From IMG/VR virus record IMGVR_UViG_3300008107_001076, positions 1-31,877 of that record: a DNA stretch of 31,877 bases; one strand, 5' to 3'. Below the pieces are notes generated by a model that saw only the letters and a program-made list of their open reading frames with translations, was not told the DNA's origin and did not search any database. The stretch is from a virus. This document shows, in pieces, positions 1,447 through 17,383 of the stretch (position 1 is its first letter; every line of letters begins with the position of its first letter). Made by a program: the position numbers and the translations under genes.

Positions 1447-2793
1447 ATGCCCCGCAAGCCTGCCGCCGCCCCGCGCCGAAAGAGTGCCGCGCGGCCGATC
1501 CGCGGGACGCTTGTCAACCTGCGGAACAGCCTGGCCGACATCAGCCTGAGCCTGTCGCCGCGCGACATCGGCCCCGAGACCGCGATCCGTGTCTCGTCGA
1601 TCCTCGGGGTCGTGCGCTGGATCTCGCAGGCCGTGGCGGTGATGCCCCTCCAGATCATGCGGACGCTCCCCGACGGACGCAAGGAAGACGCGGCGATCCC
1701 CTGCTCCTACACGCTGCGGAAGCGGCCGAACCCGTGGCAGTCGGCCTATGACTTCTGGCAGCTCGTCGCCTACTGGACGGCCCTCCACGGAAACGCCTAC
1801 TGCCGCGTCCTGCCCGGGCCGCGCGGCTTCTGTTCCGAGCTGCGGCCGATGCACCCGAGCCGGGTCAAGGTCGACCGGCTCTCCGACTACTCGCTCGCCT
1901 ACAAGTTCTGGAACGACCGCGGCACCTGGGAACCGGTGCCAGCCTCGGAGGTGATGCACTGGCGATGGCTCTCGAATAACGGGACTATCGGCATGGCGCC
2001 GGCGGAACTGTGCGGGACGTCGATCGCCCTCGCCCGCCAGCTCGACACCGCGGCGACGGCCTTCTGGCAAAACTCCGCGCGTCCCGACGTCGTCCTGGAA
2101 ACCCAAGAGAAGATCCCCGACGAGGCGATCGCGGCCCTCCGCGAACAGATCCGGACGCTCTACGGCGGCGCCGCCAACCGCGGCAGCGCGGCCGTTCTCC
2201 CGCGAAAGACGAAGCTCGTCCCGATCGAGAGTAACTCGATGGAGGCGAACCAGTTCCAGGAGCTGCGGGACGCGATCCTCCCCGACGTCTGCCGCTGCTG
2301 GGGCGTTCCCTCGACGCTCCTCGGGGATGCCCGGATGGCGAAATATTCGACCGTCGAGCAGGAGCACCTCTCCGCGCAGGTCTGGTGCCTGCTGCCCTGG
2401 CAGAAGCGTATGGAGGGCCCTGTCGATATGCTCCTCCAACCGGTCTACGGCGAGGACGTTTACGCGAAGCTCGACAACCGCGGGCTTCTCCGCGGCGACA
2501 CCGCGGCCCGGTCGTCGCTCTACCAGACGCTCTGGAACATGGGGGCGATCACGCCGAACGAGATCCGCGACCGCGAGGATCTGCCGCTCCTCGAGGACCC
2601 GGCCGCGAACGAGACGTTCGTCCAGCTCGGGTTCTCGACGCTGGCCGCGGCCGCCGCCCAGGCCGGGGCCGCCGGGGGCGATCCGCCGGCGAGCGATCCG
2701 CCCGACGACACGCCGGCCGACGCGCCGCCGGATGACGAGACCCCGCCGGCCGACGAGCCGGCCCCCGGAGGGACGACCGATGTCGCAGCCTGA
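1447..2793 (+). CDS. Portal protein (HK97 family)
   Basis: Forms the dodecameric ring at the head vertex through which DNA enters and to which the neck attaches. The 448-residue length fits the HK97-type portal family. The N-terminal third has the typical wing/clip pattern (RVSSILGVVRWISQAVAVMPL, then a YDFWQLVAYWTALHGNAY helix). The middle has TKLVPIESNSMEANQFQELR and RCWGVPSTLLGD, the classical family signature. The last 50 residues are a disordered Pro/Asp/Glu-rich tail. The ATG at 1447 follows a GAGGG element. Its end overlaps the next gene by 14 bp, suggesting translational coupling to the protease. Confidence 0.95.
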   Translation: MPRKPAAAPRRKSAARPIRGTLVNLRNSLADISLSLSPRDIGPETAIRVSSILGVVRWISQAVAVMPLQIMRTLPDGRKEDAAIPCSYTLRKRPNPWQSAYDFWQLVAYWTALHGNAYCRVLPGPRGFCSELRPMHPSRVKVDRLSDYSLAYKFWNDRGTWEPVPASEVMHWRWLSNNGTIGMAPAELCGTSIALARQLDTAATAFWQNSARPDVVLETQEKIPDEAIAALREQIRTLYGGAANRGSAAVLPRKTKLVPIESNSMEANQFQELRDAILPDVCRCWGVPSTLLGDARMAKYSTVEQEHLSAQVWCLLPWQKRMEGPVDMLLQPVYGEDVYAKLDNRGLLRGDTAARSSLYQTLWNMGAITPNEIRDREDLPLLEDPAANETFVQLGFSTLAAAAAQAGAAGGDPPASDPPDDTPADAPPDDETPPADEPAPGGTTDVAA

Positions 2794-3757
2794 ACGCCGC
2801 TACCTGCTGACCGCCGACCATCCCGACGCGATCGCCGTCGAGCGGCGCGACGATCAGCCGCCGCAGCTCGTCGGGATCTCGCCCCCGTGGGAGAGCCTGT
2901 CCGTCGACCTGGGCGGCTTCCGGGAGAAGTTCTCCGCGACCGCGTTCGACGGCCTGATCGACCGCAAGCCGACGGATCCGCGAGGCAAGATCGACGTCCC
3001 GTTCCTGTTCAATCACGACCCGAACCTGATCACCGGCCGGACGTCGAATGGCCGGCTCGACCTGACGAAGGAAGCCCGCGGCCTCGGCTACCGGCACACT
3101 CCGCTGCTCACGAGCAGCGGCAAGGACCTCGTGATGATGGTCGAGGATCGGACGATCACCGGCAGCTCGTTCGCGTTCACGGTGGCCGACGGCGGCGAGA
3201 CCTGGACGGAGGATGAGCGCGGGAACGTGATCCGCACCGTGACGAAGGCGGGCGGCCTCTATGACATTTCCGCGGTGACGAGCCCGGCCTACCCGGCGTC
3301 GTCGGTCGCCCCTCGGTCCCTCGACCTCTGGCGATCCGCCCGCGCCGCCGCGGCCGCCCCCGGCTCCGCTCAGGGCCTGCTGATCTCGATCGACTTCGAC
3401 CAGACGTTCACGGCCGCCCCCGGCCTCTGGCGGAGTTTCATGACCGAGGCCCTCGCCCGCGGAAACCGCGTCTGCTGTGTGACCCGTCGCGAGGACACGG
3501 AGAAGAACCGCGAGGAGCTGCGGCTCGCGTTCGGGGAGCATTTTGGCGACTTGGCCGGCGTCGTGCTCGCCGGGCCGGACCGACGAAAGCGGTCGGCCGC
3601 AGCCGACGCCGGCCTCTCGCCCGACATCTGGATCGACGACAAGCCCGAGACCGTGCCGGAGCCCGAGGAGACCCGCGGCGTCCGCGTGTCGAGCCTCGCC
3701 GGTGCTCGGGCCGCAGCGGCCGCCGCCGTCGCGAGGATGCGGATTCATGCCGGCTAA
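2780..3757 (+). CDS. Prohead protease fused to a C-terminal HAD-like domain
   Basis: Residues 1-195 look like an HK97-type prohead maturation protease, which trims capsid delta domains and then itself. FNHDPN supplies the candidate catalytic His79 and TITGSSFAF the Ser at 129/130, followed by ISAVTSPAYPAS. Residues 198-325 form an extra domain with HAD-superfamily motifs: IDFDQT (Asp205, Asp207) as motif I, CVTRRED (Thr235) as motif II, a Lys270 region, and IWIDDKPE (Asp286, Asp287) as motif IV. The family normally ends after the protease. The ATG at 2780 overlaps the portal end, and upstream in-frame codons are portal shadow. The 3' end overlaps the zinc-ribbon gene. Activity of the HAD part is inference. 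Confidence 0.88.
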   Translation: MSQPERRYLLTADHPDAIAVERRDDQPPQLVGISPPWESLSVDLGGFREKFSATAFDGLIDRKPTDPRGKIDVPFLFNHDPNLITGRTSNGRLDLTKEARGLGYRHTPLLTSSGKDLVMMVEDRTITGSSFAFTVADGGETWTEDERGNVIRTVTKAGGLYDISAVTSPAYPASSVAPRSLDLWRSARAAAAAPGSAQGLLISIDFDQTFTAAPGLWRSFMTEALARGNRVCCVTRREDTEKNREELRLAFGEHFGDLAGVVLAGPDRRKRSAAADAGLSPDIWIDDKPETVPEPEETRGVRVSSLAGARAAAAAAVARMRIHAG

Positions 3758-3902
3758 GTGCCCACGCTGCGGCGGTCGGGCCCGCGTCGATTCGTCGAAG
3801 CGGGCCGGGGACCGCCAGGTCCAGTACGTCGAGTGCCAGTCCTGCCGCGCCCGGTGCCGGCAGGTCGTCCCCGCGGATTCAATCTGGAGGCGCAGCCGAT
3901 GA
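3747..3902 (+). CDS. Small zinc-ribbon protein
   Basis: A 51-residue protein whose only recognisable content is a zinc ribbon: CPRCGG near the start and CQSCRARC about 25 residues later, with basic residues between. Such two-knuckle proteins in phages (Com-like or Ogr-like) bind RNA or DNA; which role applies here cannot be told. The ATG lies inside the last codons of the protease gene, and the stop overlaps the next start (ATGA), so it is translated within the head operon. Function is unproven. Confidence 0.7.
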   Translation: MPAKCPRCGGRARVDSSKRAGDRQVQYVECQSCRARCRQVVPADSIWRRSR

Positions 3903-4270
3903 CCGACACCAACGCCCCCGCCGCCGCGGCGGCCCCGTTCGACACCCTCGCGGCCCAGCTCGCCGCGTTCATGGCCGCGGCGAAGTCGTCGGCCGCCGGC
4001 GGCCTGACCTGGCAGGAGTTCGGCGAGCTGCTCGTCTCGCTCCTGCGGCTGTGCGTGACCACGCTCGACACGGTCGAGGGCCTGTCGGGCGAGGAGAAGC
4101 GGGCGGTCGTCCTGGCCGCGGCCGCGAACCTGTTCGACCTCGTGGCCGACAAGGCGATCCCCACGGCCGTCTGGCCGCTCTGGATCCTCGTCCGCCCGGC
4201 CGTCCGGTCGCTCGTCCTGGCGATCGCCGCCGGGGCGATGGAGCAGATCTTGAAACTCGTGAGGTCGTGA
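3899..4270 (+). CDS. Hypothetical protein with hydrophobic C-terminal half
   Basis: A 123-residue protein with an Ala/Pro-rich N-terminus, a middle helix (LTWQEFGELLVSLLRL), an SGEEKRAVVLAAAANLFDLV helix, and a hydrophobic last third (PLWILVRPAVRSLVLAIAAGAM). It could be membrane-associated or a helical structural protein. I do not recognise the family. ATG at 3899 overlaps the previous stop by 4 bp, and its own stop overlaps the next ATG, so it is tightly coupled in the cassette between protease and capsid. The longer open frame from 3758 is shadow of the zinc-ribbon gene. Confidence 0.75.
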   Translation: MTDTNAPAAAAAPFDTLAAQLAAFMAAAKSSAAGGLTWQEFGELLVSLLRLCVTTLDTVEGLSGEEKRAVVLAAAANLFDLVADKAIPTAVWPLWILVRPAVRSLVLAIAAGAMEQILKLVRS

Positions 4271-4833
4271 TGATCACCGCGCTCCTGCTCGCCGCCGCCG
4301 CTCTGCTGTTCGCGAACCCCGAACACCTGAAGGCGATCCGCGAGGCCGTCCGGAAGAAGGCCGCCGCGGCAACGCTCCAGCCGCGGTACATGCTGGCCGT
4401 CGGCCTGGTGATCGGCGCCGCGATGGTCTGGTTCTCGGCTGGCCGCGACGAGGCGGCGCCGCCGCCCCCGGCCCCGGCCCCGGCGGGGCTGCACCTGCGC
4501 GGCCTGTTCCGCGGGCCAACGGCGTCGGAGGACGCGGCGACGATCGGGGCCCTCTGCTCCGAGCTGGCCGACGAGATCGAATGGGACGGCCGGCAGGCCG
4601 AGCCGTTCCTGAAGAGCGGCGTCGCGTTTGACGACCTGCGGCAGCGGGCCCGCGAGCTGCGATGCCGGGGCGTGTCGATCGGCGCCCGCCAGCCGGCGGC
4701 CCGGGACGCGATCCGCGTCTACCTCGAGGAGCAGGTCGGGACCGCCGGCGGCCCGGTGACACCGGAGCAGCGGGCGAAGTGGGTCGCCGCCCTCCGCGAC
4801 ATCGGCCGGGAGGCGACCGATGCGGCCCGATAG
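4270..4833 (+). CDS. Predicted membrane protein with two hydrophobic segments
   Basis: 187 residues. An N-terminal hydrophobic stretch (MITALLLAAAALLF) is followed by a Lys/Arg-rich helix and a second hydrophobic segment (MLAVGLVIGAAMVWF) at about residues 39-55. A Pro/Ala linker leads to a soluble domain of about 115 residues with Glu/Arg-rich helices. Topology looks like a small anchored protein with an exposed C-terminal domain. The family is not recognised. It overlaps both neighbours by 1-14 bp. A hairpin-type holin or a spanin-like role is possible given the peptidase that follows, but nothing in the sequence proves it. Confidence 0.72.
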   Translation: MITALLLAAAALLFANPEHLKAIREAVRKKAAAATLQPRYMLAVGLVIGAAMVWFSAGRDEAAPPPPAPAPAGLHLRGLFRGPTASEDAATIGALCSELADEIEWDGRQAEPFLKSGVAFDDLRQRARELRCRGVSIGARQPAARDAIRVYLEEQVGTAGGPVTPEQRAKWVAALRDIGREATDAAR

Positions 4834-5911
4834 GCTTCGGCTCCTCGCCGTCTCCCTGCTTCTCGGTCTGGCCTTCGCGGCGGTCGTCGCGAGCCTGACG
4901 GGCGGCCCCCGGCCGGCCGGCTGGATCGACGAAGGCGACGGCCGGTTCGGCTGGCGGCCGGACCCCGCCGGCGTCCGCGAGTTCCTCGCGGAGCTGCCGG
5001 AGCCGACGTTCGCCCGGGCCGGGGCCGAGACGGTGGCGAAGGCCCAGGGGAAGGACACGTTCCTCTACCGTTCGGCCTACAAGGCCCACCAGGCCCTCTA
5101 CGGCCGGCCGTGGATCGTCGAGCGGCAGGGCATCGGCGACTGTGTTTCGTGGGGCTGGGCCCACGGGATCTACGTCGCCCAGTGTGTCGACTGGGAGACC
5201 GGCCGACTCGCGAACCCGCCACCGTTCCCGTCCACCGAGGCGATCTACGGCGGCTCGCGTGTCGAGGCCCGGGGTAAGTCGGGCGATGGCGCCGCCCCCG
5301 TCGGCGGCTGGAGCGATGGCTCCTACGGCGCGGCTGCGGCCCGCTGGGTCCGCGACTGGGGCGTCGTCTACCGCGAGCCGATCGGCGACCTCGACCTCCG
5401 GGCCTACTCCGCCGACCGGGCGAAGCAGTGGGGCGCCTACGGCTGCGGCGGCAAGGGTGACGGCGGCCGGCTGGACGGCGTCGCGAAACGGCACCCGGCG
5501 ACCCATATCGCCCTCGTCACGACCTGGGACGAGGCGGCCGCCGCGATCGAGGCCGGCTTTCCGGTGCCGGTCGCCTCGATGCAGGGCTTCGCGAACACCC
5601 GCAACGCCCACGGCTACGCCGCGGCCTCCGGCCAGTGGGCGCACGAGATGTGCTTCGTGGCCGTCCGCTACCAGCGGAACGGCTCGCCGTCCGACGCCCT
5701 GCTCTGCCTGAATTCCTGGGGGCCGAATTGGATCACCGGCCCGAAGTGGCCCGCCGACATGCCCGACGGCTCGTTCTGGGTCGAGCGGCGCGTCGTGGAG
5801 CGGATGCTCGCCCAGGAGGACTCGTTCGCGGTCGGGTCAATCGCCGGCTTCGGCTGGCGCGATCTGCACCACGGGAACTGGATGACACCCGCGCCGGAGG
5901 CTCGCCGATGA
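4820..5911 (+). CDS. Papain-like (C1-type) cysteine peptidase with N-terminal signal/anchor
   Basis: 363 residues. A hydrophobic segment at about 6-26 (LRLLAVSLLLGLAFAAVVAS) suggests export or membrane anchoring. The catalytic domain carries the C1 peptidase signature in order: QGIGDCVSWG (candidate nucleophile Cys108), WAHEM (His275) and LNSWGPNW (Asn298). NSWG is the classical papain-family asparagine motif. This is unlike CHAP or NlpC/P60 endolysin domains, which share the fold but not that motif. The ATG at 4820 overlaps the upstream gene by 14 bp. It sits between prohead protease and major capsid genes, where no peptidase is expected. It could cleave head proteins, or act outside the cytoplasm in lysis or entry. 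The signal-like N-terminus favours the latter. Confidence 0.85.
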   Translation: MRPDRLRLLAVSLLLGLAFAAVVASLTGGPRPAGWIDEGDGRFGWRPDPAGVREFLAELPEPTFARAGAETVAKAQGKDTFLYRSAYKAHQALYGRPWIVERQGIGDCVSWGWAHGIYVAQCVDWETGRLANPPPFPSTEAIYGGSRVEARGKSGDGAAPVGGWSDGSYGAAAARWVRDWGVVYREPIGDLDLRAYSADRAKQWGAYGCGGKGDGGRLDGVAKRHPATHIALVTTWDEAAAAIEAGFPVPVASMQGFANTRNAHGYAAASGQWAHEMCFVAVRYQRNGSPSDALLCLNSWGPNWITGPKWPADMPDGSFWVERRVVERMLAQEDSFAVGSIAGFGWRDLHHGNWMTPAPEARR

Positions 5912-6186
5912 CGGTCACCCTAAACAAGCGGCACGCGATCTACGCGGCGGCCGCGGTTCTGTTTCTGTTCTGGTGGAGCGGCTCGTCTCGACCGCCGCTG
6001 CCAAGCCCGTTCGCGCCCGAGCCCGACCGGCCGGTCCTCCGGGCGCTCGCGCGGCTCGCGAAAAATTTCCTCTGGGTGGCCCTGCTCGCCGAAGGCCCGC
6101 CGGCCTCCGCGGCCGAGTACCAGACCGTCCGGGCCCGCGTCGGGGACGACGGGCACCAGGTCCTCGAGCATGGCAGGGGGTGGTAG
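5908..6186 (+). CDS. Small single-span membrane protein
   Basis: 92 residues. A short basic N-terminus precedes one strong hydrophobic helix (IYAAAAVLFLFWW, residues 10-22), then Pro-rich and amphipathic segments (LARLAKNFLWVALLAEG). ATG at 5908 overlaps the peptidase stop (ATGA). The layout (short N-terminus, one helix, longer outside tail) is compatible with a holin, a spanin or a structural anchor, but there is no family match I recognise. It is part of the 3899-6498 cassette. Confidence 0.68.
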   Translation: MTVTLNKRHAIYAAAAVLFLFWWSGSSRPPLPSPFAPEPDRPVLRALARLAKNFLWVALLAEGPPASAAEYQTVRARVGDDGHQVLEHGRGW

Positions 6187-6498
6187 ATGCTTTCTGGAAT
6201 CTGGAAAGCGTTCCTCGCGTGGCTCGTCTGGCTCTCGGCCGACCCGGCCGCGATCGACGCGGAGGCCCCGAAGGCGGCCGCCGCGGTGGCCGCGGCCCGG
6301 GCGAGCCTCGCGGTGGACGCCGCGCCGCCGGCGCCCCCGGCTCCGCCGCCGGCCCCCGGCCCGACGCCGACCGGGTGCCGGTGCGGCTGCGTGAACGGCA
6401 AGATCAAGCCCGACGGCCGGATCGAGATCCCCTGCGAATGCTCGACGAGCTGCACCTGCAAGGCGTCGCGATGCGGCGGCGCCAACTGCCCCCGCTGA
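6187..6498 (+). CDS. Small Cys-rich protein with amphipathic N-terminus
   Basis: 103 residues starting directly after the previous stop (TAG at 6184-6186, then ATG). The first 18 residues are hydrophobic (LSGIWKAFLAWLVWLS). The middle is Ala/Pro-rich, and the last 40 residues hold a dense Cys cluster (CRCGC, then CECSTSCTC and a final C before CPR). The Cys pattern suggests disulfides outside the cytoplasm or a metal cluster. Not recognised. It is the last gene of the cassette, and a hairpin and the capsid-gene promoter candidate follow it. Confidence 0.65.
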   Translation: MLSGIWKAFLAWLVWLSADPAAIDAEAPKAAAAVAAARASLAVDAAPPAPPAPPPAPGPTPTGCRCGCVNGKIKPDGRIEIPCECSTSCTCKASRCGGANCPR

Positions 6499-6599: not shown

Positions 6600-7805
6600 A
6601 TGCCCAGCCCCAAGCTCGCTCGACTCCAGGACGAAACCGTCGCCATCGAGAACGAGATCAACGATCTCCGTTCCGTGACCCCGGCCGACGATGCCGACAA
6701 GAAGCGGATCGAGGAGCGGCTCGCCGCCCTGTCGAACCGGGCCGGCGAGATCGCAGCCGAGGCGAAGGGCGAGCGGGCCCTCGACGACAAGCTCGCCGCG
6801 CTGCGGGCCGTCAGGACCAGCGACTCCGAGCCGAAGAAGCCGGAGATCACGGACCAGGAGACGGACAGGGTCGACATCCGCGCCGGCGTCCGGGCCTTCC
6901 GGTCCGTGAAGATCGCCGCGGCGGTCGGCTCCTACCTCTGCGGCCTGTCCGGGTTCTCGAAGCGGGCGATGGGCGAAACCGTCGACGGCTACGGCGACGA
7001 TTTCGTCGTGACCGAGCTGTACAACGCGATCGTCAACCGGCTCCAGTACCAGTCGGTCGGCCTCCAGCTCGCGAGCATCTTCCGGCCGCAGGGCCAGAAG
7101 CTGTCGATCCCGAAGTCGGGCGACGTCACGTTCGGCTTTGCTGCCGAGAACGTGGCGTTCACCGATCAGGATGTCGCGTCGAGCGGCGCCGAGCTGACGC
7201 TCTACGAAGGCGGGGCGTCGGTGCCCGTCTCGCGGGCCCTGCTCGAAGACTCCCCGGTCGACGTCGCCGGCCTGCTCGTGGATCGGTTCTCGCACGGCCT
7301 CGCCCGCTGGATCGACTCGGTCTGGCTGGGCGGGAACACCGCGAACCCCGCGATCACCGGCCTCGCGGCCTCGGTCGTGGCTGGGAACACGATCACGGTG
7401 GGCGCCTCGGCCTCCACCACGGCCGCCAATCTGGCCGACGTCGTCGGCAAGGTCGACGAGTCGATCATGGGAAATGGTGCCTGGGTGGTCTCGAAGGCCG
7501 GCTGGGTGGACCTCATGAAGCTCTGGGCGTCGCAGCAGACGACGATGGTCGTCGGCGGCGGCCGGATCGTTCCCACCATCATGGGTGCCCCGGTGTACCT
7601 CGTGAAGGGTCTCCCGGCGTCGACGCTCGCCCTGTTCGGCGATTTCTCGATGGCGACTGCGGTCGGCATCAAGGACACCGGGCTGGAGATCAACGTCGCC
7701 CGCGAGCTGCTCGTCCGCAGCCGGCAAGTTCTCTACGTCGCCTCGACTCGGGTCGGTGTGAGCAACCACGGCCCCGAGTTCGTCGGCCGGCTGGCGAAGG
7801 CTTGA
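6600..7805 (+). CDS. Major capsid protein (HK97 fold)
   Basis: 401 residues that assemble the icosahedral shell. Residues 1-85 form a charged helical delta (scaffold) domain (LQDETVAIENEINDLRS, IEERLAALSNRAGEIA), expected to be removed by the protease. The main domain includes VVTELYNAIVNRLQYQSVGLQ, KLSIPKSGDVTFGFAAE, and the C-terminal GLEINVARELLVRSRQV and RVGVSNHGPEFV typical of the Phage_capsid family. The ATG at 6600 is preceded by AAGGA; the frame upstream is shadow. A large - strand open frame over this gene is an artefact of high G+C. Confidence 0.95.
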   Translation: MPSPKLARLQDETVAIENEINDLRSVTPADDADKKRIEERLAALSNRAGEIAAEAKGERALDDKLAALRAVRTSDSEPKKPEITDQETDRVDIRAGVRAFRSVKIAAAVGSYLCGLSGFSKRAMGETVDGYGDDFVVTELYNAIVNRLQYQSVGLQLASIFRPQGQKLSIPKSGDVTFGFAAENVAFTDQDVASSGAELTLYEGGASVPVSRALLEDSPVDVAGLLVDRFSHGLARWIDSVWLGGNTANPAITGLAASVVAGNTITVGASASTTAANLADVVGKVDESIMGNGAWVVSKAGWVDLMKLWASQQTTMVVGGGRIVPTIMGAPVYLVKGLPASTLALFGDFSMATAVGIKDTGLEINVARELLVRSRQVLYVASTRVGVSNHGPEFVGRLAKA

Positions 7806-15952: not shown

Positions 15953-16847
15953 GGGTGCGATGACGCTCGAGATGGCGAGGTCCCGGATCCGCCGCCAGTT
16001 CGGCCAGTCTGGCGCGAAACAACGAAGGCAGGCGACGGCGCCGCGGCCGGCCCGCCAGCCCGGCCACCGGTTCGCGATGCCGGCGTCGAAGGCCGAGCCG
16101 TGGACCACGCACGACCTGGGCGTCGTCGGGAAGGTCGGGATCCTCTCCGACATTCACGTCCCGTATCACGACCCGATCGCCCTCCGGGCCGCGGTCGATC
16201 ACCTGGCCGAGGCCGAGATCGACGCGCTCGTCCTGAACGGCGACACGGCCGATTTCTACACGATCTCGCGCTGGACAAAGGACCCGAGGAAGCGCGACCT
16301 CCCGGGCGAGCTGGCCCAGATCCGCGAAACGCTCGGATGGATCCGGCAGACGTTCCCGGAGATCCCGATCGTTTTCAAGAATGGGAACCACGAGGAGCGC
16401 TGGAAGCACTGGCTATGGCAACACGCCCCCGAGGTCTCGGCCGAGCCGGAGATGGGCCTCGCCGCGTGGCTGCACCTGGAGCGGCACGGGATGCAGCTCG
16501 TCGAGGACCATCGGCCGATCATGCTCGGGAAGCTGCCGGTCCTCCACGGCCACGAGAAGGGGAAGGGGATCTCCTCCCCTGTGAACCAGGCCCGCGGGGC
16601 GTTCCTCCGGCTCCATCACACGGTCCTCGAGGGGCACGGCCACCGGACCAGCGGACACTGCGAGCCCGATATGTGGGGCTCGGAGGTCTTCTGCTGGTCG
16701 ACCGGGTGCCTGTGCGATCTCCGGCCGGAATACGCCCGGATAAACAAGTGGAACCACGGGTTCGCGATTGTGGAGGTTCACGAAGGCGGCGAGTTCGACG
16801 TCGAGAACCTGCGGATCACGGCCGACGGGAAGGTCCGGTCGTCGTGA
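15852..16847 (+). CDS. Calcineurin-like metallophosphoesterase with N-terminal helical domain
   Basis: 331 residues. The family motifs appear in order: SDIH (Asp100, His102), NGDTADF (Asp131), GNHEER (Asn179, His180), HGHEKG (His232, His234) and GHGH (His262, His264), giving a complete two-metal site. Residues 1-60 are helical and basic and may bind nucleic acid. Phage relatives are usually annotated as phosphoesterases with nucleic-acid or nucleotide substrates unknown. ATG at 15852 has an AAGGAGG Shine-Dalgarno 8 bp upstream. The stop overlaps the next GTG. Confidence 0.9.
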   Translation: MAGDPMTAVVKRVVAEHPNHSARGLARLIVAESKGAMTLEMARSRIRRQFGQSGAKQRRQATAPRPARQPGHRFAMPASKAEPWTTHDLGVVGKVGILSDIHVPYHDPIALRAAVDHLAEAEIDALVLNGDTADFYTISRWTKDPRKRDLPGELAQIRETLGWIRQTFPEIPIVFKNGNHEERWKHWLWQHAPEVSAEPEMGLAAWLHLERHGMQLVEDHRPIMLGKLPVLHGHEKGKGISSPVNQARGAFLRLHHTVLEGHGHRTSGHCEPDMWGSEVFCWSTGCLCDLRPEYARINKWNHGFAIVEVHEGGEFDVENLRITADGKVRSS

Positions 16848-17383
16848 GCCCCTACATCCTCACCGACGCCGACCTCGAGGAGGCCGAGCGGCAGGCCCGG
16901 CGGTTCCAAGGGGTCTGGTGGACTGGCACAAGCGGGGTGTTAGCGTCCTGGCTGTTTCACGCCGTCACCACAATCAGGGAGGAGCGAAGGATGAAGGAGC
17001 AGCAAGGGGACCGGGTGATGAAGGAGCAGCAAGGGGACCGGGTGAAGTTCGCCACGGGCGCGGTTCGCTCCGGCGACGCGGAGGCGACTCGCTACGATCT
17101 GATCTCCCCGATCGGCCTCGAGGCCGTGGCCCGGACCTGCGCCGAGGGGGCGGCGAAGTACGGAGACTGGAACTGGGAGTCGGGGATGCCGGTCCACGAC
17201 CTGCTGAACCACGCCCTCCGACACCTGTACCAGTACCTCGCCGGCGACCGCACGGAGGATCATCTCCCGCACGCCGCCTGGGGCGTCCTCGCGGCGATTC
17301 ACTCCGACAAGCTCTGGCCGCACCTGAACGCTGGCACGCTCCGCGGGCCGGGCTGTGCGCGGCCGCCGGAGCCGACGCCGTGA
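16844..17383 (+). CDS. dATP/dGTP diphosphohydrolase-like protein (DUF5664 type)
   Basis: 179 residues from GTG 16844. The C-terminal catalytic part (about 66-170) matches the all-alpha phage nucleotide diphosphohydrolase family: KFATGAVRSGDA, RYDLISPIGLEAVA, AAKYGDWNWESGMP, ALRHLYQYLAGDRTEDHLPHAAWGVLAAIH. It would hydrolyse deoxynucleoside triphosphates. A perfect 27-bp tandem duplication (16991-17044) encodes MKEQQGDRV twice; each copy carries an AAGGAG and a GTG or ATG, so internal starts at 16991 or 17018 are possible. The N-terminal 49 residues before it have no recognised match. Overlaps both neighbours by 4 bp. Confidence 0.8.
   Translation: MSPYILTDADLEEAERQARRFQGVWWTGTSGVLASWLFHAVTTIREERRMKEQQGDRVMKEQQGDRVKFATGAVRSGDAEATRYDLISPIGLEAVARTCAEGAAKYGDWNWESGMPVHDLLNHALRHLYQYLAGDRTEDHLPHAAWGVLAAIHSDKLWPHLNAGTLRGPGCARPPEPTP
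16991..17044 (+). repeat. Perfect 27-bp tandem duplication in coding sequence
   Basis: Two identical 27-bp units (16991-17017 and 17018-17044), each encoding MKEQQGDRV in frame. Each unit contains AAGGAG and ends with GGTG, so ribosome-binding sequence is duplicated too. Recent slippage or unequal exchange is likely since no differences have accumulated. Confidence 0.95.

Follow-up and report, generated by a model that had tools for sequence, protein, structure and literature searches.

To our knowledge, the lysis systems of bacterial phages all target peptidoglycan or its synthesis, and how viruses exit bacteria that lack peptidoglycan or rely on a protein wall is an open question. What the planctomycete wall consists of, and what it does mechanically, has been disputed for decades. 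Earlier descriptions make this wall mostly protein, wall preparations were found to contain cysteine-rich YTV proteins, and most Planctomycetales are without peptidoglycan genes (PMC8567305). Planctopirus limnophila cannot do without its YTV protein but can spare most of its peptidoglycan genes (PMC10632474). Among archaeal viruses, the lysis peptidase PeiP lyses cells under reducing conditions only (PMC2989375). Here we analysed a five-gene cassette around a papain-fold cysteine peptidase in a 31,877-nucleotide stretch of viral DNA (positions 1 to 31,877 of IMG/VR record IMGVR_UViG_3300008107_001076; hereafter the window). The set is described nowhere in the databases searched. We consider it fairly probable that the five genes form an exported, late-expressed, thiol-assisted proteolytic lysis cassette, carried by phages and prophages of wall-modified planctomycetes with a disulfide-rich protein wall. 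The locus is arranged as follows, with lengths in amino acids (aa) and transmembrane segments marked TM.

2780-3757, + strand: S78 prohead protease (PF04586, E 2.5e-26; phrog_80, E 4e-32)
3747-3902, + strand: zinc-ribbon protein of 51 aa, CPRCGG...CQSC (from its sequence and weak Lar / zinc-ribbon matches)
3899-4270, + strand: m123, hydrophobic protein of 123 aa, candidate for a holin-like, membrane-permeabilising role
4270-4833, + strand: m187, membrane protein of 187 aa (TM 40-58) with a conserved C-terminal soluble domain
4820-5911, + strand: papain-fold cysteine peptidase of 363 aa (fold model, Foldseek, invariant catalytic residues)
5908-6186, + strand: m92, 92 aa (homologues downstream of other peptidases; recurrent C-terminal motif)
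6187-6498, + strand: cys103, 103 aa with 9 Cys (homologues downstream of other peptidases; Cys-rich C-terminal domain)
6600-7805, + strand: HK97-type major capsid protein (PF05065, E 1.6e-24)

An earlier note on this DNA had placed five coupled genes between the prohead protease and the capsid gene. All five were found there, with start and stop codons that overlap or abut, but the note had missed the 51-aa zinc-ribbon gene, a sixth gene coupled to the cassette between the prohead protease and the five-gene set. The Lar / zinc-ribbon matches of its product (E 2.7e-05) are under the Pfam cut-off, and the gene is present in many cassettes, not all. No model of Pfam, PHROGs, NCBIfam or PADLOC matched the core cassette genes, and a single-sequence search of GenBank phages with m123 gave no match.

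Fold and conservation of the cassette

We modelled the peptidase with AlphaFold (AF2) from a diverse alignment of 31 relatives spanning 45-77% identity. The model reached a predicted local distance difference test score (pLDDT) of 88.3 and a predicted template modelling score (pTM) of 0.85; an earlier model, built on 29 close relatives, had a low pLDDT of 60. When the PDB was searched with this model by Foldseek, all 50 matches listed were C1A peptidases at probability 1.00, with bacterial xylellain as the best match (E 3.7e-10) and cathepsins also leading, indicating that the fold is C1, as the earlier note had expected. Its three proposed catalytic residues, Cys108, His275 and Asn298, were found without exception across the 31 aligned relatives, as was Gln103, likely the oxyanion-hole residue. 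Together they give the Gln-Cys-His-Asn order of the C1 active site, and Asn298 is the first residue of an NSWG motif. Since all four are invariant in relatives down to 45% identity, they are not there by chance. More distant homologues retain the Cys and the His, and their Asn is sometimes Gln. Proteolytic activity is predicted.

We found that Pfam, PHROGs and NCBIfam do not recognise a peptidase in this protein, that a PDB search with the single sequence gave no match at E<=10, and that a PDB profile search matched no C1 entry. The peptidase is C1-like by fold and active site and a new family by sequence; it is not filed in C1 by sequence because it matches no C1 family model. The signal-like N-terminus reported earlier was seen as a hydrophobic, signal-anchor-like helix at residues 3-27, and 28 of the 31 peptidases carry such an N-terminal membrane helix by a simple hydropathy cut-off. 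Between this helix and the catalytic domain, residues ~28-100 have the place expected of a linker or pro-region. Relatives were present in 180 IMG/VR stretches at the first scan and in at least 412 at a wider scan, and none of 50,697 GenBank phage records carried the peptidase. As a separate observation, [LIV][ASV][LPFYA] ends 24 of 48 distinct peptidases (e.g. FSLAP, FALAL; loci L020, L086, L092), compared with 4.8% of the proteins of the loci. The window peptidase is without this tail, which is possibly a sorting signal or degron.

Conservation of the cassette was counted over 63 peptidase lineages differing by >7%, with upstream counts from the 54 lineages that have the full upstream side and downstream counts from the 46 that have the full downstream side. 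Upstream of the peptidase, a homologue of m187 was found in 53/54 lineages and one of m123 in 52/54. Downstream, m92 and the Cys-rich protein had homologues in 42/46 and 39/46, respectively, so the five-gene set held up in the survey of related phages that had been proposed. The gene order is kept across dozens of independent contigs.

By lineage, the cassette lies between the S78 protease and the major capsid protein in 37, has an integrase downstream in 6, and has another or a short context in 12. In one relative (G006), it is the last block ahead of the integrase, 3′ of the tail genes and on the same strand, and in Blastopirellula marina (L086) it stands directly ahead of TerL; the packaging and head genes of both belong to PHROGs other than those of the window. 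The linkage to one head module is thus unstable, the cassette being found also away from head genes and beside different head modules. Positions before the integrase or TerL, as in some relatives, are typical of lysis genes, and to judge from its predicted proteins the cassette follows the lysis-cassette pattern of a conserved block with small membrane proteins and one exported enzyme.

Two further observations concern these loci. The Blastopirellula cassette adjoins a gene (L086 6877-7953) whose conserved product of 358 aa has the look of an ATPase joined to a GNAT-like domain. A protein of 124 aa, similar to a helix-hairpin-helix domain or to the C-terminal domain of RNA polymerase alpha, is also encoded there, and related prophages have the two proteins as well. 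Contig L085 (RFNS01000116.1), assigned to Alphaproteobacteria by binning, carries a window-type cassette and capsid, and is probably a mis-binned planctomycete phage.

The membrane proteins expected by the earlier note were recovered in part. Membrane prediction was clear for the peptidase and m187 and borderline for m123 (TM 94-112), but sub-threshold for m92 and cys103. In the distant prophages L167 and L168, the m187 homologues are predicted lipoproteins with a lipobox. The m92 protein has a short hydrophobic N-terminal segment, an amphipathic helix and a C-terminal end of the HxxGW type, and [HN]xx[GS][WLF] terminates 102 of 135 m92 homologues. Holin matches of the small proteins beside distant peptidases were weak and sub-threshold only. 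Two loci carry additional membrane proteins. In the metagenome-assembled genome (MAG) RI_54 (L084 3591-11800), about eight tandem paralogous genes after the cassette encode multi-pass membrane proteins of ~325 aa, of unknown function. In a planctomycete MAG (L087), no m123 homologue was called, and the 92-aa gene is followed at 2988-3236 by that of an 82-aa multi-pass membrane protein, GlsB/transglycosylase-associated-like by eye.

The Cys-rich small protein had also been noticed correctly. It consists of a hydrophobic N-terminus, a Pro/Ala linker and a 9-Cys C-terminal domain, in which the cysteine motifs resemble the DnaJ CxxCxGxG zinc repeats. Across relatives, the last cassette slot holds a DnaJ-zinc-like Cys-rich domain, a thioredoxin-like domain, or both. 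In Blastopirellula-type cassettes, a thioredoxin-like domain with WCPYC replaces the Cys-rich domain (11499-12068 in L086), and in the distant prophages L167 and L172 Cys-rich and thioredoxin-type sequences occur within one predicted lipoprotein. These variants suggest that a periplasmic thiol or zinc function travels with the protease.

Planctomycete hosts and the YTV wall

Genome matches of the peptidase include Blastopirellula marina DSM 3645 and planctomycete MAGs, and the hosts of the cassette phages and prophages are planctomycetes. We surveyed 392 genomes sampled evenly from the Planctomycetota; the peptidase was present in 11, YTV in 40 and the penicillin-binding protein (PBP) transpeptidase (PF00905) in 377. 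The peptidase was found in 11/40 YTV-positive genomes versus 0/352 YTV-negative genomes (Fisher 3e-12, not corrected for phylogeny). Among genomes of at least 5.4 Mb, tallied by hand, the figures were 11/34 and 0/66 (2e-6, likewise uncorrected). Moreover, YTV was present in 21/21 peptidase-bearing genomes tested versus 0/7 genomes taken regardless of YTV.

The four genomes with the close form of the peptidase have no PBP transpeptidase (PF00905). In the B. marina family, 197 of 199 genomes are without a PBP transpeptidase, and 12 carry the peptidase; one genome of this family (G520) has two separate peptidase copies (C2:772915 and C5:159215), perhaps two prophages. Taken together, a YTV wall predicts the peptidase better than the absence of peptidoglycan does, the association being correlational. 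A phrase search of the literature for isolated planctomycete phages found no papers. A non-lytic phage has been reported for a deep-sea planctomycete (PMC10945688), which shows that phages of this phylum may leave their cells without lysing them.

Proposed proteolytic lysis and its alternatives

We propose the following mechanism. The papain-like peptidase would be membrane-anchored and stay in the periplasm, where a pro-region probably inhibits it. As infection ends, the hydrophobic proteins of 123, 187 and 92 aa would depolarise or rupture the membranes and thereby free the peptidase, which would cleave a disulfide-rich protein layer that may do the job of peptidoglycan in other bacteria; YTV-domain wall proteins are the best candidate substrate. 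The Cys-rich or thioredoxin-like partner would bring reducing or zinc/thiol chemistry, either loosening the disulfide cross-links or keeping the catalytic Cys reduced. We put forward more tentatively, as a real possibility, that this represents a new kind of bacterial lysis, in which a disulfide-cross-linked YTV wall is dissolved by a tethered papain-like protease together with a thiol-redox/zinc protein. The genes would then be an exchangeable cassette of phages of peptidoglycan-less Pirellulaceae, with divergent forms in prophages of other YTV-walled planctomycetes.

Searches for conventional lysis genes agreed with the earlier reading that the window has none that can be recognised. Nearly all proteins called in the window, together with the methyltransferase next to it, matched no Pfam model of a murein hydrolase, holin or spanin, and no endolysin was found across nearly all of the record or in the related, terminally redundant genome G008. 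With its 127-bp direct terminal repeat, G008 is probably a whole genome. Of its 57 called proteins, all but one, which lies across the junction of two sequence pieces, were compared with Pfam; these 56 matched 22 families, with no murein hydrolase among them. Amidase_2, phage lysozyme and CHAP were likewise not found in 25 cassette-carrying records. One candidate was rejected: phrog_2252, labelled "endolysin; inhibits RNA polymerase", is matched by the 179-aa product of 16844-17383, but the match covers a dGTP_diPhyd_N domain, and we did not take the protein for an endolysin. It is dATP/dGTP diphosphohydrolase-like and is likely to be mislabelled an endolysin by automatic annotation.

The earlier note had proposed a proteolytic lysis or envelope-entry system suited to a protein-rich envelope. 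Lysis or entry is strongly favoured over head maturation because of the C1 fold, the link to export or the membrane, the portability of the cassette, its lysis-type positions, the lack of a recognisable murein hydrolase and the YTV hosts. Two of the refuting observations named by the earlier note, an endolysin and a fold other than C1, were looked for and did not turn up.

Several points weigh against proteolytic lysis. Both lysis and enzymatic activity are predictions from the genes, and a position in the head operon would equally fit a virion protein. Six hosts of distant homologues retain penicillin-binding transpeptidases; lack of peptidoglycan is therefore not required, and missing peptidoglycan as the sole explanation is weakened. 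Phylogeny confounds the host association, since YTV is characteristic of a single class and PBP loss of a single family. The m123 gene is missing from the terminally redundant G008, and none of the small membrane proteins scored above the cut-off of the curated holin models. Finally, Pfam might miss a murein hydrolase of very divergent sequence.

The main surviving rival to lysis is entry through the protein wall, in which the peptidase and its partners, as parts of the virion or delivered by the tail, would pierce the envelope and open the wall at DNA injection. The cassette is within the head operon in 37 lineages, the logic of a protein wall holds equally for getting in, and the tail genes show no other recognisable wall-degrading enzyme. 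However, the N-terminal membrane helix of the peptidase and the predicted lipoprotein signals of the partner homologues better suit export by the infected cell, and lysis genes typically occupy the pre-integrase position, apart from the head and tail genes. We regard entry as unlikely.

It is quite unlikely that the cassette serves lysogenic conversion or superinfection exclusion, being expressed from the prophage to remodel or protect the host envelope. Although the cassette adjoins the integrase in several temperate relatives and is retained in host chromosomes, most lineages place it inside the late head operon, and a lysogen that exported a wall protease constitutively would bear a cost. 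PADLOC models match no cassette protein, which speaks against exclusion and led us to reject a defence system.

Papain-fold murein peptidases are common in phages, and the peptidase could be an endolysin in disguise, acting on the stem peptides of murein as CHAP and NlpC/P60 enzymes do. One of the viral fold matches carries the annotation of an N-acetylmuramidase fragment, and the transpeptidases in the six hosts of distant homologues would fit such a substrate. We consider this highly improbable, given that the 50 PDB matches listed are all C1A proteinases with no CHAP or NlpC/P60 among them, that the CHAP search of 25 cassette-carrying records was negative and that the close-form hosts are without penicillin-binding transpeptidases; a disguised CHAP, lysozyme or amidase was rejected on these searches and the fold. 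Head maturation by a second protease, the alternative named in the earlier note, has the flanking S78 and capsid genes of the window in its favour, but we give it next to no weight and regard it as largely refuted, because S78 supplies the phage with an ordinary head protease, an N-terminal membrane helix is unfit for a cytoplasmic capsid protease, and a cassette that recurs before integrase or terminase and with unrelated head modules is no head-maturation device.

The remaining genes give the setting of the proposed lysis cassette. The window is part of a record of 33,446 bp, which is still without the TerL start and the small terminase. Other window genes encode TerL, portal, head completion, tape measure, integrase, RusA and AAA ATPase proteins, and the record further holds the methyltransferase adjoining the window and collagen-like and LamG-type tail proteins. 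By its predicted gene content outside the cassette, this is a temperate siphovirus. By eye, a C-terminal extension of the S78 protease (~residues 199-299) resembles a HAD phosphatase (DFDQT...IDDKPE); the extension gave matches to phrog_4256 and phrog_4919, both of unknown function, at E ~1e-15.

Comparison with known systems

If proteolytic lysis is correct, a protease-plus-thiol cassette that tracks YTV-walled hosts would answer how viruses leave such bacteria. It would also give independent, virus-side evidence that the cysteine-rich protein layer bears load, and would offer a tool for opening planctomycete cells. The peptidase, absent from the GenBank phage records searched, would serve as a marker gene for planctomycete phages.

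The window peptidase shares with MEROPS C1A enzymes (xylellain, cathepsins B/L/K) the fold, the Gln-Cys-His-Asn order and the NSWG motif, and like them it has an N-terminal extension ahead of the catalytic domain, a possible pro-region. Unlike them, it is predicted to be membrane-anchored, belongs to a fixed phage cassette and has no sequence-level match in Pfam, NCBIfam or the PDB. A C1 fold is also found in tailed-phage peptidases of unknown role, from uncultured Caudovirales in BFVD and from Streptomyces phage Shady; these were compared by fold alone and have 12-19% identity to the window peptidase. The Blastopirellula last-slot protein weakly resembles the disulfide reductase DsbH and DsbE-type thioredoxins (DsbH, E 2.9e-4, under the curated cut-off), but it is fused to a cassette-specific N-terminal segment, and the window form has a Cys-rich DnaJ-like zinc motif instead of a thioredoxin.

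Canonical lysis cassettes of dsDNA phages (holin, endolysin and spanins, including signal-arrest-release (SAR) endolysins) likewise combine small membrane proteins with an exported enzyme, and the present cassette further resembles them in the lipoprotein partners of its distant forms and in its position beside the integrase or terminase. It departs from them in having a C1-like peptidase in place of a murein hydrolase, a thiol/zinc partner, and no recognisable holin or spanin homology. The pseudomurein endoisopeptidases PeiW and PeiP of archaeal viruses differ in their C-H-D triad, pseudomurein-binding repeats, isopeptide substrate and archaeal hosts. The likeness lies in a virus-encoded cysteine peptidase that lyses a prokaryote with a non-murein wall, the role that the cassette would play in planctomycetes.

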